From IMG/VR virus record IMGVR_UViG_3300030101_004733, positions 1-50,426 of that record: DNA of 50,426 nt; one strand, written 5' to 3'. Origin of the DNA: a virus. Under the pieces are notes generated by a model. That model was not told where the DNA came from. It did not search any database and was given only the letters and a program-made list of their open reading frames with translations. Position numbers and translations under genes: made by a program. Below, in pieces: positions 12,196 through 16,870 of this stretch (positions within the stretch are counted from its first letter, which is position 1; each line of letters starts with the position of its first letter).

Positions 12196-12223
12196 TTGAA
12201 GGTACTGTACCACATGGTATGAT
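12196..12223 (+). promoter_or_regulatory. Candidate promoter of the ribozyme leader and small-gene array
   Basis: TTGAAG (12196-12201), a 16-base spacer and TATGAT (12218-12223) resemble sigma70 elements. The spacer contains the palindrome GGTACTGTACC (12201-12211), which could be an operator. Transcription would start near 12230 and give a roughly 200-nt leader before the first gene at 12453. Confidence 0.45.
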
Positions 12224-12229
12224 AACTTA

Positions 12230-12371
12230 TCTTTTAAAGATAGACCGAATGGGTGACCGGCGAACAAATAGACACCAAGTCTAAAAGGCGAACTCGGTAG
12301 ATAACAGAGACACTACTCAAGAGGGTATCACAGAAGATGCCACACCACTGGTAAGAGGATCAAACTCCAAA
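12230..12371 (+). ncRNA. Structured 5' leader upstream of the ribozyme
   Basis: No credible gene is present. Short complementary segments suggest folding: ACCGA (about 12243) with TCGGT (about 12294), and GGTATC/GATGCC around an ACAGAA loop (about 12325-12342). The word AGACACT at 12308-12314 is complementary to AGTGTCT, the recurring cleavage-site core of the downstream array, and could mask it. The leader ends directly at the ribozyme arm. Confidence 0.45.
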
Positions 12372-12435
12372 GCTATACTGATGAGGCCTTAATGGCCGAA
12401 ACACTGACAGCGGGTTATCCCGCTGTGTCTATGGC
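12372..12435 (+). ncRNA. Hammerhead ribozyme, type I (termini in stem I)
   Basis: All core bases are present in order. Stem I strand GCTATA is at 12372-12377 and CTGATGA at 12378-12384. Stem II is GGCC (12385-12388) with loop TTAAT and GGCC (12394-12397). GAA is at 12398-12400 and stem III starts with A12401. Stem III pairs ACAC (12401-12404) with GTGT (12425-12428) and, past a TGAC bulge, AGCGGG with CCCGCT around a TTAT loop. The cleavage triplet is GTC, with the cut after C12429. Stem I closes with TATGGC (12430-12435), including one G-U pair. If stem III instead folds as ACAGCGGG/CCCGCTGT (12407-12426), the arm ACACTG (12401-12406) is free for other targets. Confidence 0.85.
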
Positions 12436-12447
12436 ATGGGAGGCCAT
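12431..12447 (+). promoter_or_regulatory. SD-in-loop hairpin before array gene 1
   Basis: ATGGC (12431-12435) pairs with GCCAT (12443-12447) around the loop ATGGGAG, which carries most of the GGGAGG ribosome site. The 5' strand is the same segment used as ribozyme stem I, so the two folds are mutually exclusive. The start ATG follows at 12453. Confidence 0.7.
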
Positions 12448-12452
12448 CTATA

Positions 12453-12653
12453 ATGAATAAAAAAATTAGATTTTCATTAACTCAAGATGAGGTTGAATAC
12501 CTAGCGGATCTACTAAGATATGAAATGGCAGATCCGGAACCAAGAATGGAAATGCATCTTGAACCGGAACAAGTATCTGATCTACAGAAGAGATTAAGAA
12601 AAAAATCTATCGATAACGCAGATCAGATTGAAAGATTATTCCAAAGCGCTTAA
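12453..12653 (+). CDS. Array gene 1: small acidic/basic helical protein (66 aa)
   Basis: The first gene after the hammerhead, with GGGAGG 9 bases before its ATG. The 66 residues contain TQDEVEYLADLLRYEM and end in a Lys/Arg-rich helix (DLQKRLRKKSIDN). The pattern suggests a small helical protein. I do not recognise the family. The stop codon lies in the loop of the next element's stem-loop (12641-12664). Confidence 0.65.
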   Translation: MNKKIRFSLTQDEVEYLADLLRYEMADPEPRMEMHLEPEQVSDLQKRLRKKSIDNADQIERLFQSA

Positions 12654-12697
12654 CAGCGCTTTGGGAGTGTCTATAGCACGGGAGGCTATATATTATG
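12641..12697 (+). promoter_or_regulatory. Ribozyme-target element 2 (stem-loop, GAGTGTC^TATAGC, SD hairpin)
   Basis: A perfect 10-bp stem CCAAAGCGCT/AGCGCTTTGG (12641-12664) with loop TAAC is followed by GAGTGTC and a predicted cut after C12671. TATAGC (12672-12677) is fully complementary to the ribozyme arm GCTATA and also pairs with GCTATA at 12685-12690. The loop of that second hairpin is ACGGGAG, holding the ribosome site for the ATG at 12695. Confidence 0.75.
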
Positions 12698-13150
12698 AAA
12701 CTACCAAATAATATTAATATTAAACTACCTAACATTAACGCGGTTGGTTCTTTAAACGCTTTCATGAAAGCAAGAACTTACTACCCTAGCAATATGTTAG
12801 AGGTGGGAACACCGGCCACAATTCATATGTGGTCTGATACCCATGCCGCTACGGTTCAAGAGGTCGTACAGACTAAAGCGGGCCGTACTTACCTTAAGGT
12901 CACAGAAGACCATAAGGAAGTGATTGCTAAAGCTAAAAGCTATGGCGATCAGCCTAAATATAACTTTACTCCTAACCCTAACGGTAGGGAGTGTTGGGGC
13001 GAGGTTGTCTTCTTTAAAGACGACAACGACGAGCTAGTCTTCTTAATTAAGAGGGCCGCTTTTAACTATAAAACCAAGCGTTTTACTAAAAACGGTTGGG
13101 CTATAGTTAGCCTCGGTGAGCGTCGCGAATATCGTGACCCTCACTTCTAA
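12695..13150 (+). CDS. Array gene 2: hypothetical protein (151 aa)
   Basis: The start at 12695 is fixed by GGGAGG in the upstream hairpin. It is a soluble protein with alternating hydrophobic and charged residues, including TPATIHMWSDTHAATVQEVV and a C-terminal Lys/Arg/Trp-rich part (RFTKNGWAIVSLGERREY), probably a beta-rich fold. No catalytic motif is evident. As an early array gene it is probably involved in host takeover, which is inference from position. Confidence 0.65.
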   Translation: MKLPNNINIKLPNINAVGSLNAFMKARTYYPSNMLEVGTPATIHMWSDTHAATVQEVVQTKAGRTYLKVTEDHKEVIAKAKSYGDQPKYNFTPNPNGRECWGEVVFFKDDNDELVFLIKRAAFNYKTKRFTKNGWAIVSLGERREYRDPHF

Positions 13151-13157
13151 ATTTCTC

Positions 13158-13211
13158 GGGGGCCTTTTTGGCCCCCAGTGTCTATGGCAATTAAGGAGGC
13201 CATCAACAATG
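13158..13211 (+). promoter_or_regulatory. Ribozyme-target element 3
   Basis: Stem GGGGGCC/GGCCCCC (13158-13176, loop TTTTT) is followed directly by AGTGTC with a predicted cut after C13182. TATGGC (13183-13188) matches the ribozyme arm with one G-U pair. ATGGC pairs again with GCCAT (13199-13203) around AATTAAGGAG. The start ATG is at 13209. Confidence 0.75.
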
Positions 13212-13310
13212 TTAAACTTTATTATCAAAAAAATAAAAAACGTTATTGAGAGAAAAGAATGGAAAGCTAATAACGATCTCTATTTAAGAAGAATTAAATT
13301 AAATGGATAA
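13209..13310 (+). CDS. Array gene 3: 33-aa basic peptide
   Basis: A short frame follows the GGAGG site of element 3 at normal spacing. The peptide is MLNFIIKKIKNVIERKEW then KANNDLYLRRIKLNG: an amphipathic, Lys/Arg-rich helix. Its reality rests on the complete upstream element and the stop just before the next stem-loop. The function is unknown; membrane or nucleic-acid binding is possible. Confidence 0.6.
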   Translation: MLNFIIKKIKNVIERKEWKANNDLYLRRIKLNG

Positions 13311-13317
13311 AACATTA

Positions 13318-13365
13318 GGGGCCGCAAGGCCCCAGTGTCTATAGCATGGGAGGCTATATATTATG
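13318..13365 (+). promoter_or_regulatory. Ribozyme-target element 4
   Basis: GGGGCC-GCAA-GGCCCC (13318-13333) is a 6-bp stem closed by a GNRA tetraloop. CAGTGTC follows with a predicted cut after C13339. TATAGC (13340-13345) pairs perfectly with the ribozyme arm or with GCTATA (13353-13358), whose loop is ATGGGAG. The start ATG is at 13363. This is the clearest copy: both ribozyme arms match over six bases each. Confidence 0.8.
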
Positions 13366-13710
13366 AAAATAGAAAAAGAAAAATTATACACTATCAACAT
13401 ACTTCATCATGAAGCAGTGGTAGCTGCTAAAAAAGCAGTCACTGATTTTATAGAGAAACACGGCGAACCATTTTATTGTGGTTTTGCCGGTGTTGTTGTT
13501 AAAGGTGTAAGAGGCAATTCAAGAGTAGGTAAGAGACTCAAAGAATTGGGTTTTAATGATAACTACGGCGGCGGTCTATATTTTAGTAATCCCGCGGGTT
13601 TTAATTTAACTTACCAGTCAATGGATTTAAAAGAAATTGGCGCAGAGAAGTATGCAGAAATGTTTAGAGAGTTTGGATTTGATGCTCATATGAGTTCAAA
13701 TCCGGATTAA
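13363..13710 (+). CDS. Array gene 4: hypothetical protein (115 aa)
   Basis: The start is set by the ribosome site in element 4. The protein contains FIEKHGEPFYCGFAGVVVKG (about residues 26-45), GNSRVGKRLKELGF, and a Gly-rich stretch DNYGGGLYFSNP. The look is that of a compact alpha/beta domain. I vaguely recall related small proteins in other phages but cannot give a function. Confidence 0.65.
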   Translation: MKIEKEKLYTINILHHEAVVAAKKAVTDFIEKHGEPFYCGFAGVVVKGVRGNSRVGKRLKELGFNDNYGGGLYFSNPAGFNLTYQSMDLKEIGAEKYAEMFREFGFDAHMSSNPD

Positions 13711-13716
13711 TTTATA

Positions 13717-13776
13717 GGGAGGGAAATTTAATTTTCCCTCCCAGTGTCTATAGCATTAAGGAGGCTATATATTATG
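13717..13776 (+). promoter_or_regulatory. Ribozyme-target element 5
   Basis: GGGAGGGAAA pairs with TTTCCCTCCC (13717-13742), followed directly by AGTGTC with a predicted cut after C13748. TATAGC (13749-13754) is complementary to the ribozyme arm and to GCTATA (13764-13769); the loop is ATTAAGGAG. The start ATG is at 13774. Confidence 0.8.
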
Positions 13777-14142
13777 AACAACGATTACTTAACAGCACAA
13801 TATAGAAGTGAAACAGATAATAATGATAATTATTATTTTCAAATATTTAGACTAGAAGAAGATGGTTTTAAAATCAAAAATTTTTTAGATGGTGTTAAAT
13901 TTAAAAATCCGGAAGAGGCAAACAAATGGATTTATAAAAATTACCCATATGAAGACGATCATCTTTTCATGGAGATAATGCAAGTTCCAAACAAACTTCC
14001 GGAACACTGGCATCATCCTTTTACTGCTGCTCTAAGCACTGAAGCTTTTTATCAGCATAATAGAGACAACGGTATCAACACTGCAATCAACTGGACTAAA
14101 GGAAAAAAGAGAGATCAATACATAAAAGAACAGGGCGCATAA
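13774..14142 (+). CDS. Array gene 5: hypothetical protein (122 aa)
   Basis: I place the start at the ATG at 13774 (MNNDYLTAQYRSETDNND). A possible upstream GTG at 13744 lies inside the target element and would translate the hairpin. The protein is rich in Asn, Asp, Lys and aromatic residues, with EHWHHPFTAALSTEAFYQH near residues 80-98. No known motif is seen. The stop codon lies in the loop of the next stem-loop. Confidence 0.65.
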   Translation: MNNDYLTAQYRSETDNNDNYYFQIFRLEEDGFKIKNFLDGVKFKNPEEANKWIYKNYPYEDDHLFMEIMQVPNKLPEHWHHPFTAALSTEAFYQHNRDNGINTAINWTKGKKRDQYIKEQGA

Positions 14143-14191
14143 GCGCCTTGTCTCTTAGTGTCTATGGCAATTAAGGAGGCCATTAATTATG
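14132..14191 (+). promoter_or_regulatory. Ribozyme-target element 6
   Basis: AGGGCGC/GCGCCTT (14132-14149, one G-U pair) has the loop ATAA, which contains the stop codon of array gene 5. After a short spacer, AGTGTC has a predicted cut after C14162. TATGGC (14163-14168) matches the ribozyme arm with one G-U pair, and ATGGC pairs with GCCAT (14179-14183). The start ATG is at 14189. Confidence 0.72.
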
Positions 14192-14413
14192 GATATGTTA
14201 AAAATGTATGGTGAAGACATCAAATCTAGACAGTCAACACCAAAAGACTCCGCACAAGCTTTTGTGATGGAGGAGATTAAAGGCTATGTTAAAGAATTTA
14301 CTTCACAGCATCCTAATGTTAATGAAAAAAAATTCATTTTAGCACTAGCAAGATTACATAATAATATTGGTAAAAAATTCAGCGGTGACTGGATGCCAAT
14401 AGAAATCGAATAA
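14189..14413 (+). CDS. Array gene 6: small hypothetical protein (74 aa)
   Basis: GGAGG of element 6 precedes the ATG. The protein is helical, with VMEEIKGYVKEFTSQHPNV and KKFILALARLHNNIGKKF, and has no membrane segment or catalytic motif. No family is recognised. Confidence 0.62.
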   Translation: MDMLKMYGEDIKSRQSTPKDSAQAFVMEEIKGYVKEFTSQHPNVNEKKFILALARLHNNIGKKFSGDWMPIEIE

Positions 14414-14420
14414 ATATCTC

Positions 14421-14466
14421 GGGGCCCTAAGGGCCCCAGTGTCTGTAGAAGGGAGGTGATATTATG
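14421..14466 (+). promoter_or_regulatory. Ribozyme-target element 7 (variant, SD hairpin lost)
   Basis: GGGGCCC/GGGCCCC (14421-14437, loop TAA) is followed by AGTGTC with a predicted cut after C14443. The downstream half reads TGTAGA, so only five stem I pairs form. The usual 3' partner is replaced by a long unpaired ribosome site GGGAGGTGAT. Target recognition is partly kept while the SD-sequestering fold is gone. Confidence 0.6.
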
Positions 14467-14592
14467 ATGTCAAAAGAAATGGCAGATATGTATGAAGCTA
14501 ATGTCGGATGGGGCAAACTATTCGCTCCAAATGATGCCGGCATCAAAGCTTTCATTAAGTTTTACATGTCATATATCAACCACAAAAATTAA
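14464..14592 (+). CDS. Array gene 7: 42-aa peptide
   Basis: A short frame starts at ATGATG (14464), 7 bases after GGGAGGTG, the strongest unmasked ribosome site in the array. The peptide contains MADMYEANVGWGKLFAPNDA and a hydrophobic/aromatic C-terminal helix (IKAFIKFYMSYIN). The function is unknown. Confidence 0.55.
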   Translation: MMSKEMADMYEANVGWGKLFAPNDAGIKAFIKFYMSYINHKN

Positions 14593-14802
14593 ATTACATA
14601 TGTTTACTCCCGCGAGGCGCGGTTCACCCACCGCGTCTCAATCAGTGTCTGTAGCAAGGTAAACCATCAAGGGGTAGGTTTTTAAATTTTACCCGCTTAA
14701 CTACTATCCGGACGTGATCACCGGCCAGTGCTAAATGTTTTATCAACAAGCCTTGTTATTCCGCGTCTCCAGTGTCTGTAGCAATTAAGGAGGCTACCAA
14801 TA
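14593..14802 (+). other. 210-base gene-less gap in the array
   Basis: The gap contains two copies of a junction beginning CCGCGTCTC and ending in CAGTGTCTGTAGCAA (14631-14655 and 14761-14783), about 130 bases apart. Between them a GGGTA..TACCC inverted repeat (about 14675-14697) and no frame of useful length are seen. The repeated junction suggests a duplication or a cassette whose gene has been lost. Confidence 0.5.
14614..14656 (+). promoter_or_regulatory. Ribozyme-target element 8, orphan (no gene follows)
   Basis: GAGGCGCGGT/ACCGCGTCTC (14614-14639, one G-U pair) is followed by CAGTGTC with a predicted cut after C14649, then TGTAGC (14650-14655), a six-base match to the ribozyme arm with one G-U pair. 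No SD partner strand and no start codon follow; the next 100 bases hold no frame. It looks like a decayed or gene-less cassette. Confidence 0.6.
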
Positions 14803-14805
14803 ATG
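14745..14805 (+). promoter_or_regulatory. Ribozyme-target element 9
   Basis: A weak AACAA/TTGTT stem (14745-14757) precedes the site. CAGTGTC has a predicted cut after C14776. TGTAGC (14777-14782) matches the ribozyme arm with one G-U pair. GTAGC pairs with GCTAC (14793-14797) around AATTAAGGAG. The start ATG is at 14803. Confidence 0.72.
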
Positions 14806-15102
14806 AAAAAAATAAAACTTAGAGACGTAAAAATTTGCGACTGGATGAGTGAGGAAACCACTTGTTTTAAAGCAACAGTTACAGTCGATGGTGAGGATAT
14901 TTGTACTGCCAAGAACGATGGTAAGGGCGGATGTACAGATTTTTATCCTGTAAAAATTAATGATGGTTATGAAAAAATTAATCAATTAAATAATTGGTGC
15001 AAGGATAATTTACCTAAATGGAAGTCACACTATTTCCCAAAGAAAAAGTTCGACAGAGATTTAGAGTTTGTTGTGGGAGAATTGTTAGATGAACAAATAT
15101 AG
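14803..15102 (+). CDS. Array gene 8: hypothetical protein (99 aa)
   Basis: A soluble protein with four Cys (CDWMSEETTCFKATVTVDGE, DICTAKNDGKGGCTDFY) and a Lys/Asp-rich C-terminus. The spaced Cys are not in a clear zinc pattern. Its last 14 bases overlap the start of array gene 9, so the next two genes are read as a coupled group without their own elements. Confidence 0.65.
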   Translation: MKKIKLRDVKICDWMSEETTCFKATVTVDGEDICTAKNDGKGGCTDFYPVKINDGYEKINQLNNWCKDNLPKWKSHYFPKKKFDRDLEFVVGELLDEQI

Positions 15103-15274
15103 TGTGACTTTGTCTGTGGATGAAGATTGGATTAAAGAATTTGATTTAATTGTGGAAGCAATTGATGAGAGTGAGGCTGAAGCATTAGCAATGATGAGTG
15201 TTAGAGAGAATTTATCTGACTACATTATTGCCAGTGCGGAAAAATTTAAAAGGAGAGAGAAGACAAATGATTAA
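15089..15274 (+). CDS. Array gene 9: small acidic protein (61 aa)
   Basis: The ATG at 15089 overlaps the 3' end of gene 8, and AGAATTG-type purine sequence precedes it, suggesting translational coupling. The sequence is acidic (DEDWIKEFDLIVEAIDESEA) with the pattern of a beta strand plus helix, as in small phage proteins that process amino-acid-rich repeats; the family is not recognised. Confidence 0.6.
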   Translation: MNKYSVTLSVDEDWIKEFDLIVEAIDESEAEALAMMSVRENLSDYIIASAEKFKRREKTND

Positions 15275-15446
15275 GAGTATTTTTGAAGCTGTTGATATTT
15301 GTGAAGGTGAGACTGAACCGGAAAATGAAGAGCAGTATATTGAAGCTTGGCAGTTCTTAATTGACACTGGCTATGCTTGGTCACTTCAAGGATGGTTTGG
15401 CCGTAGAGCGGCAGACCTTATTGAAGCGGGATATTGCACAAAATAA
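15267..15446 (+). CDS. Array gene 10: small conserved phage protein (59 aa)
   Basis: The start ATG at 15267 is chosen because AGGAG lies about 10 bases upstream; it overlaps the end of gene 9. The core IEAWQFLIDTGYAWSLQGWF, then GRRAADLIEAGYC, is a short domain I recognise as widespread in phages (the LQGWFGR motif), of unknown function. The length is complete for this type. Confidence 0.7.
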   Translation: MIKSIFEAVDICEGETEPENEEQYIEAWQFLIDTGYAWSLQGWFGRRAADLIEAGYCTK

Positions 15447-15456
15447 AATACAATAA

Positions 15457-15517
15457 TGCATACGCGTATATATGCGCGTATGCAGTGTCTGTAGCATTAA
15501 GGAGGCTACCAAAAATG
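15457..15517 (+). promoter_or_regulatory. Ribozyme-target element 10
   Basis: TGCATACGCG/CGCGTATGCA (15457-15484) forms a perfect 10-bp stem whose last base starts AGTGTC; the predicted cut is after C15489. TGTAGC (15490-15495) matches the ribozyme arm with one G-U pair, and GTAGC pairs with GCTAC (15505-15509) around ATTAAGGAG. The start ATG is at 15515. Confidence 0.78.
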
Positions 15518-16526: not shown

Positions 16527-16740
16527 AAGAAAGACCTAGAATCAAACAAATTGCAATTTGTTTGTGAGCGCTCTGACTGAATAACGATTTTAAAACAGAG
16601 TCGTAAGGTATTGATCTTAGGAAGCATGGCCAAATGGCTGAGGGCCTAAGAGGTAAGTGCGAGTAGATGAGAAACTATCTGTTCTACCGAAAGTTGGGGG
16701 TAGCAAGTTCAAATCCCCTAAGCGCTTATAGGTCTTTCTT
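16527..16740 (+). ncRNA. Unrecognised structured RNA (about 214 nt)
   Basis: The ends AAGAAAGACCTA (16527-16538) and TAGGTCTTTCTT (16729-16740) form a perfect 12-bp stem. Inside, CAAACAAATTG/CAATTTGTTTG (16543-16564) is an 11-bp palindromic hairpin. TGAGCGCT (16565-16572) pairs with AGCGCTTA (16721-16728, one G-U), stacking directly on the outer stem to give a three-way junction. Further internal pairs include TCTTAGG/CCTAAGA (about 16614-16653). The tract GCCAAATGGCTGAGGGC resembles a class II tRNA D-arm and GTTCAAATC a T-loop, but no acceptor/anticodon fold fits. No protein frame is present. Confidence 0.65.
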
Positions 16741-16811: not shown

Positions 16812-16823
16812 AGTGTATATAGC
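16812..16823 (+). promoter_or_regulatory. Ribozyme-target element 11, GTA variant
   Basis: AGTGTA^TATAGC directly follows the terminator T-run. It keeps the perfect six-base match to the ribozyme stem I arm and five stem III pairs. The cleavage triplet is GTA rather than GTC, which hammerheads also accept. No SD hairpin follows; array gene 15 begins 48 bases later. Confidence 0.45.
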
Positions 16824-16870
16824 AAACAATTTGTTATAATTAATCATAAAATGTTAGAAAGGAACAAACA

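Follow-up and report, generated by a model that had tools for sequence, protein, structure and literature searches.

The 50,426-base window analysed here, which is the entire virus record IMGVR_UViG_3300030101_004733, appears from its sequence to come from an uncultured marine phage with a multi-gene RNA that is predicted to be cut by its own hammerhead ribozyme at about ten matching sites. Nearly every predicted cut is followed at once by a short hairpin that carries the Shine–Dalgarno (SD) sequence in its loop and whose two strands covary among related phages. We propose, at a probability of roughly 0.6, that this element serves, again and again along a single phage operon, as a junction for mRNA maturation. 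A more specific form of the proposal seems to us evenly balanced: a multiple-turnover trans-acting hammerhead would serve as the mRNA maturase of the operon and would read about ten half-sites by pairing in stem I, in stem III and through a CUCC that masks the SD; nearly all of its products would begin with the covarying hairpin, which would eject the enzyme, open the ribosome site and cap the message.

A covarying SD hairpin follows the predicted cuts

Between 12.2 and 15.5 kb, small genes stand in a row on the plus strand, and the motif GTGTC^TRTRG (where ^ marks the cut) places ten predicted cuts on that strand, after positions 12429, 12671, 13182, 13339, 13748, 14162, 14443, 14649, 14776 and 15489. 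Nine of the ten copies directly precede an open reading frame (ORF) with an SD; the copy at 14649 has neither. The pattern AGTGTCTRTRGNA, searched for in the whole record, gave nine forward matches, no reverse matches and none in the reversed control. The original prediction, which was made from this DNA alone, had named eight stems: TATGGC/GCCAT at cuts 1, 3 and 6, TATAGC/GCTATA at cuts 2, 4 and 5, and TGTAGC/GCTAC at the last two. All eight are present as written, each with GGAG in its loop (Table 1).

DNA scans of 2.9 million viral contigs recovered the window-type arrangement in about 20 contigs, and the comparison set comprises 99 distinct elements from 23 viral stretches. The stem is TATAGC/GCTAT in 20 elements, TATGGC/GCCAT in 40, TGTAGC/GCTAC in 28 and TGTAGC/GCTAT, with a G–U pair, in 6; one more reads TATGGC/GCCAA, with its outer pair broken, and four belong to a class without a hairpin, which leaves 95 of 99 with one. 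Across the 43 distinct element cores, 99.5% of cells are paired, compared with 91.0% when partners are shuffled, and the covariation score is 0.373 against 0.194 ± 0.022 for shuffled sets (0 of 500), where the cells are not independent events because the source phages are mutually related. Sliding the partner strand, as a control, gave a far lower score. Six orthologous gene groups hold more than one stem type, and both strands are matched every time (one pairing among them, L061_7187 with L062_3045, is a weak ortholog assignment).

These results bear out the earlier claim that both strands change together, but they confine it to part of the stem. Two of the five pairs vary (A–U, G–C and G–U) and the other three are invariant. 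The sixth, outermost pair, U1–A6 of the window's TATAGC class, is present in 18 of the 99 elements and is not kept elsewhere, so most elements have a five-base-pair stem with one unpaired 5′ nucleotide. The scores against shuffled partners and the matched switches of stem type within ortholog groups also uphold the earlier view that selection acts on RNA pairing; on this comparative evidence, the hairpin is real and is under such selection.

The strands could also match through copying of whole cassettes, or the element could act as DNA, being an inverted repeat that some protein or a recombinase recognises. The elements are indeed short and similar, and those of related phages share ancestry. 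However, the two stem strands share 1.31 bits of mutual information (0.05 by chance), whereas stem type and loop share 0.30 bits (0.20 by chance) and are nearly independent, so copying of whole cassettes does not explain the match between strands. The G–U intermediates, the switches at orthologous genes and the placement of all elements on one strand also speak against both ideas, which we regard as extremely unlikely.

One hammerhead core and many sites

RNAalifold, applied to 15 leaders with no structure supplied, recovered three hammerhead stems and the CUCC/GGAG helix. The CUGANGA...GAAA core, the stem II pairing and stems I and III flanking the cut are all present, as expected of a hammerhead with predicted cleavage. 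Both-sided changes occur at three of the four stem II pairs, and at one pair they occur in 8 of the 15 sequences. In two relatives (L064:9954-10197 and L073:780-1023), the core is CTGAGGA rather than CTGATGA and differs at N7, which is a free position.

No core lies within 250 nucleotides of 86 of the 99 sites (a core match at L030_5735 was discarded as a chance string inside a gene), so cutting at those sites would have to be in trans, by a single distant core. Nothing in the record matches the ribozyme arms better than the named sites, each of which forms 5–6 base pairs with the stem I arm and 4–6 with the stem III arm. Among 88 anchored sites, the base that the cut would follow (H17) is C in 83, U in three, A in two and never G, in keeping with the NUH rule; U16.1 and G16.2 are invariant, and GTGT is kept in 87, with one base off in the remaining site. 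The six stem I target bases vary, between A and G, only at the two positions opposite a ribozyme U, as G–U pairing allows. The stem variation is thus held to changes that the ribozyme tolerates, whereas a stem kept only as a hairpin could have varied at all positions. Covariation of the stem III extension with ribozyme base 15.5 is weak. A natural hammerhead system with one core and many sites appears, from these patterns, to be the larger finding, and its cleavage in the cell would be in trans.

The RNA upstream of each cut is structured as well. Hairpins of −5 kcal/mol or lower precede the cut at 99% of the 99 sites, with a mean of −16.8 kcal/mol compared with −4.7 kcal/mol in coding controls; no consistent U run lies behind them. 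With a strong hairpin before the cut and the SD hairpin after it, each cut would leave hairpins at both new ends. These strong hairpins are also what might be expected if a host nuclease, for example RNase III acting at the upstream hairpin, made the cuts and the hammerhead core acted on site 1 only, and related phages that lack a hammerhead have a double hairpin of another kind between genes. However, it is the cut-site bases that are conserved, in the near-invariance of GTGT, the exclusion of G at H17 and the restriction of TRTRGC to what the ribozyme arm pairs with, whereas sequence and length are both free to vary in the upstream stems. Cutting by a host nuclease is therefore improbable.

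Access to the ribosome site

In the free product modelled at 20 °C, GGAG is predicted to be unpaired with a median probability of 0.999 and AUG with 0.9995, and the weakest pair of the stem has a median probability of 0.91. With GGAG unpaired to this degree, the product lacks the SD-paired closed form of an SD-sequestering switch or an RNA thermometer. The original prediction had reasoned that the hairpin and ribozyme stem I exclude each other, which their shared 5′ strand confirms, and that ribozyme pairing could thereby expose the ribosome site. This second step is not supported by the modelling. GGAG in the hairpin loop is already unpaired at about 99.9%, and the hairpin does not include AUG, which leaves nothing for ribozyme binding to expose; moreover, the ribozyme's CUCC can pair with the target GGAG, so a bound ribozyme probably hides the ribosome site rather than exposing it. 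Sister phages, in addition, keep an SD hairpin without any ribozyme overlap. A switch in which the hairpin hides the ribosome site in uncut RNA until ribozyme binding opens it is consequently very unlikely, despite the strand that the two structures share.

The further suggestion that cutting would leave a 5′-terminal hairpin stands: 0–1 unpaired nucleotides follow the predicted cut in 95 of the 99 elements, placing the stem within a few nucleotides of the 5′ end, as in known 5′-terminal stem-loops. That such a hairpin would protect the 5′ end and affect message half-life is a reasonable part of the earlier reading.

At 37 °C, the product hairpins have computed energies of −4.3 to −7.5 kcal/mol, compared with −5.8 to −6.1 kcal/mol for the six-base-pair ribozyme arm alone (−2.5 kcal/mol at the hairpin-free site) and −9.2 to −12.5 kcal/mol when CUCC is added to the arm at sites with an SD. 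It is plausible, although not certain, that the hairpin is close enough in energy to compete once the concentration cost of bimolecular binding is added. The similarity of the hairpin energies to those of the arm, and the match between the hairpin 3′ strand and the arm, would also suit a stem that serves ribozyme turnover only, by displacing the ribozyme and blocking rebinding of the product. However, site 1, which is cut in cis, has the hairpin too, and one gene class without the hairpin keeps its site; turnover as the only function is accordingly improbable as well.

Proposed maturation of the operon

In the maturation junction that we propose, a single hammerhead at the operon 5′ end (12365–12406) would cut itself off gene 1 at 12429/12430, and the freed ribozyme would then act in trans on the remaining GTGTH^TRTRGC sites. 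Each cut would end the upstream message just past a strong hairpin, which would protect the new 3′ end, and would start the downstream message at the base of the SD-presenting hairpin. The hairpin 3′ strand, which has the ribozyme-arm sequence or a matched variant of it, would reclaim the 5′ strand from stem I and so help the ribozyme to leave. The hairpin would then remove the SD from the reach of CUCC and show GGAG unpaired in its loop. Finally, with 0–1 unpaired nucleotides at the 5′-OH end, it should slow 5′-end-dependent decay.

Several observations weigh against this scheme. No Rfam hammerhead model matches at its cut-off; only the type III model scores (15.2 bits versus 48.5; expectation value, 1.9). 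This cut-off is a threshold of the tool and does not define a hammerhead. CUCC and GGAG are invariant bar a few G–U cases, which amounts to conserved complementarity and no covariation, and as an SD GGAG would be conserved in any case. Under standard conditions, the bound state with CUCC is computed to be more stable than the hairpin. The pairing in trans is short, with only 4–6 base pairs in stem III and 6 plus 4 in stem I. The GCTATA arm is identical in all members found, and the only ribozyme–target variation seen is G–U; an altered stem I arm was sought with an arm-agnostic DNA pattern and in 80 TerL-related contigs, and one-core arrays were found only with GCTATA. Lastly, the hairpin is dispensable for being a ribozyme target. 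Orthologs of the site 7 gene (class MSKEM...) in L030, L033 and L062 keep the site with a longer SD and no hairpin, making four contigs in all, so the hairpin is not required for target status in this one orthologous class.

Hairpins and hammerheads in other phages

Distant phages separate the SD hairpin from the ribozyme target. In L041, L042, L012, L044 and L046, cis hammerheads precede many genes of the array, and the SD lies in the loop of a CC-TGAGGA-GG hairpin. The third pair of this hairpin is Watson–Crick in 41 of 43 cases, where 12.8 are expected, with all four pair types represented, and the stem is not a ribozyme target. An SD-in-loop hairpin is therefore independent of competition with a ribozyme. 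Such independent hairpins, which also occur at genes without a hammerhead, could mean that the trans-family hairpin too is selected only for SD presentation and an open start region, its overlap with the ribozyme being incidental. (Many ORFs without a site are spurious and form a poor comparison set for SD hairpins.) On the other hand, in 95 of 95 hairpin elements of the trans family the stem begins no later than the second base past the cut, and its variation is confined to changes that the ribozyme tolerates. Selection for SD presentation alone is thus unlikely. From these comparisons, the purpose common to the hairpins is more probably to protect the ends and display the SD, and the one-core family would add release of the ribozyme to it.

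Separate cis hammerheads stand before successive phage genes in L041, L042, L011 and L014; at its cut-off, Rfam reported no hammerhead in L041 or L042. Jormungand EXVC012P, a Pelagibacter phage in culture, carries a single cis hammerhead of the ordinary kind (L101:5010), which lies among early genes and has ardA, marR and integrase genes nearby. L112 (77% TerL identity) and others have the different inter-gene double hairpin and no hammerhead: in L112, L191, L193 and L197-L203, a long hairpin is repeated between genes, and its 3′ side can alternatively fold into another hairpin, TGAATATT..ATATTCA, that precedes the SD. The L112-type double hairpin resembles an RNase III site. Among cultured phages, the best TerL relatives of the window are the pelagiphages HTVC023P and HTVC027P, phage 023Pt_psg01 and DSL-LC04 (56–62% identity); no one-core ribozyme of the window type was found in the first 50 kb of these four, and the bacterial genomes searched gave no ribozyme match.

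Relation to known systems

To our knowledge, known natural hammerheads act once and on their own strand. No precedent for a natural trans-acting phage hammerhead was found in the literature searched, which took in few subscription journals or preprints. In phage T7, RNase III cuts the early polycistronic RNA into single-gene messages with protective hairpins; that maturation is the work of a protein enzyme, whereas the enzyme predicted here is RNA.

Tandem cis hammerheads in phage-related operons cut between the genes of polycistronic RNA, and a phage early transcript has its 5′ end mapped beside a hammerhead cut (PMC3088659). The core, the three stems and the NUH rule are as in the window, but each site there has its own core, whereas one core here faces about ten half-sites. 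In the split hammerhead of mammalian Clec2 3′ untranslated regions (described in PMC6155905), the enzyme and substrate parts lie far apart, as in the window; that ribozyme has one site per core on the same RNA, whereas the window has many sites and a core that is predicted to cut itself free first. Engineered trans hammerheads with a discontinuous stem I show multiple turnover in vitro (PMC1199579). Their stem I is likewise in two parts, the first of which binds the substrate, but they are designed RNAs with the second part off the SD, whereas in this natural operon CUCC can pair with the SD. Stem-loops at the 5′ end, such as that of ompA (Emory et al. 1992, cited in PMC7509114), are linked to mRNA stability, and 3′ hairpins block 3′–5′ exonucleases (PMC7509114). 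In the ompA type, the hairpin lies at the very 5′ end, as is predicted in the window; here, by contrast, the 5′ end would be made by a ribozyme (5′-OH) and the SD lies in the loop.

If the proposal is right, one natural RNA enzyme serves many messages in trans, and a junction of about 20 nucleotides, through its 5′ hairpin, combines release of the product with access for the ribosome and protection of the mRNA. Multiple turnover in a living system would become testable with short synthetic RNAs, and the arrangement could be the model for a compact tool that splits synthetic operons into messages of one gene each.

Other features of the window

The record encodes TerL, portal, primase, helicase and DNA polymerase. 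Leaders related to that of the window show the same promoter arrangement (TTGAC-, CCATATGG). In all members, a structured leader whose helices covary lies ahead of the ribozyme, and a similar one seems to precede the array of the hammerhead-free L112; the leader of the window had no match above chance in Rfam at gathering or relaxed thresholds.

Table 1. Features of the proposed maturation system in the window (ΔG, predicted free energy)
Position	Strand	Feature	Remark
12196–12223	+	Predicted promoter	−35 TTGAAG (12196–12201); 16-nucleotide spacer with palindrome-like ACCACATGGT; −10 TATGAT (12218–12223)
12229–12364	+	Structured leader domain, 5′ end of ribozyme RNA	Conserved over contigs; 7 pairs changed on both sides
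12365–12368	+	CUCC, complementary to target SD GGAG	Invariant in all aligned ribozymes; paired with GGAG by RNAalifold
12372–12377	+	Stem I arm GCTATA	Pairs with TRTRGC of sites, Watson–Crick or G–U
12378–12401	+	Hammerhead core CTGATGA, stem II GGCC/GGCC, GAAA	Core invariant except N7; stem II covaries
12401–12406	+	Stem III arm ACAC(TG)	Pairs with GTGT or CAGTGT of sites
12429–12430	+	Predicted cis cut between ribozyme RNA and gene 1	From consensus three-way fold
12430–12447	+	Site 1 hairpin TATGGC-ATGGGAG-GCCAT	ORF at 12453
12641–12671	+	Example of strong hairpin ending just before a cut	Predicted new 3′ end
12672–12690	+	Site 2 hairpin TATAGC-ACGGGAG-GCTATA	ORF at 12695
13183–13203	+	Site 3 hairpin TATGGC-AATTAAGGAG-GCCAT	ORF at 13210
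13340–13358	+	Site 4 hairpin TATAGC-ATGGGAG-GCTATA	ORF at 13363
13749–13769	+	Site 5 hairpin TATAGC-ATTAAGGAG-GCTATA	ORF at 13774
14163–14183	+	Site 6 hairpin TATGGC-AATTAAGGAG-GCCAT	ORF at 14189
14444–14466	+	Site 7, ribozyme target TGTAG without hairpin	Extended SD GGGAGGTGAT; ORF at 14464; product ΔG 0.0
14650–14776	+	Non-coding segment of about 127 nucleotides between two predicted cuts	Nearly identical in L026 and L038
14777–14797	+	Site 9 hairpin TGTAGC-AATTAAGGAG-GCTAC	ORF at 14803
15490–15509	+	Site 10 hairpin TGTAGC-ATTAAGGAG-GCTAC	ORF at 15515
16812–16822	+	Possible last site GTGTA^TATAGC	Between intrinsic-terminator-like hairpin and TATAAT box; equivalents in other contigs

The ribozyme may excise the segment at 14650–14776 as a small RNA; in L061 and L062, unrelated segments occupy a similar place. 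At 16812–16850, GTGTATATAGC stands after the terminator-like hairpin and before TTGTTATAAT, and this placement recurs in many related contigs without an SD or a hairpin; it may mark a final cut or belong to a promoter. The stretch at 16551–16729 gives a weak full-length match to manA RNA (expectation value, 0.007; 23.0 bits versus a cut-off of 55.2), and its 3′ part is tRNA-like.

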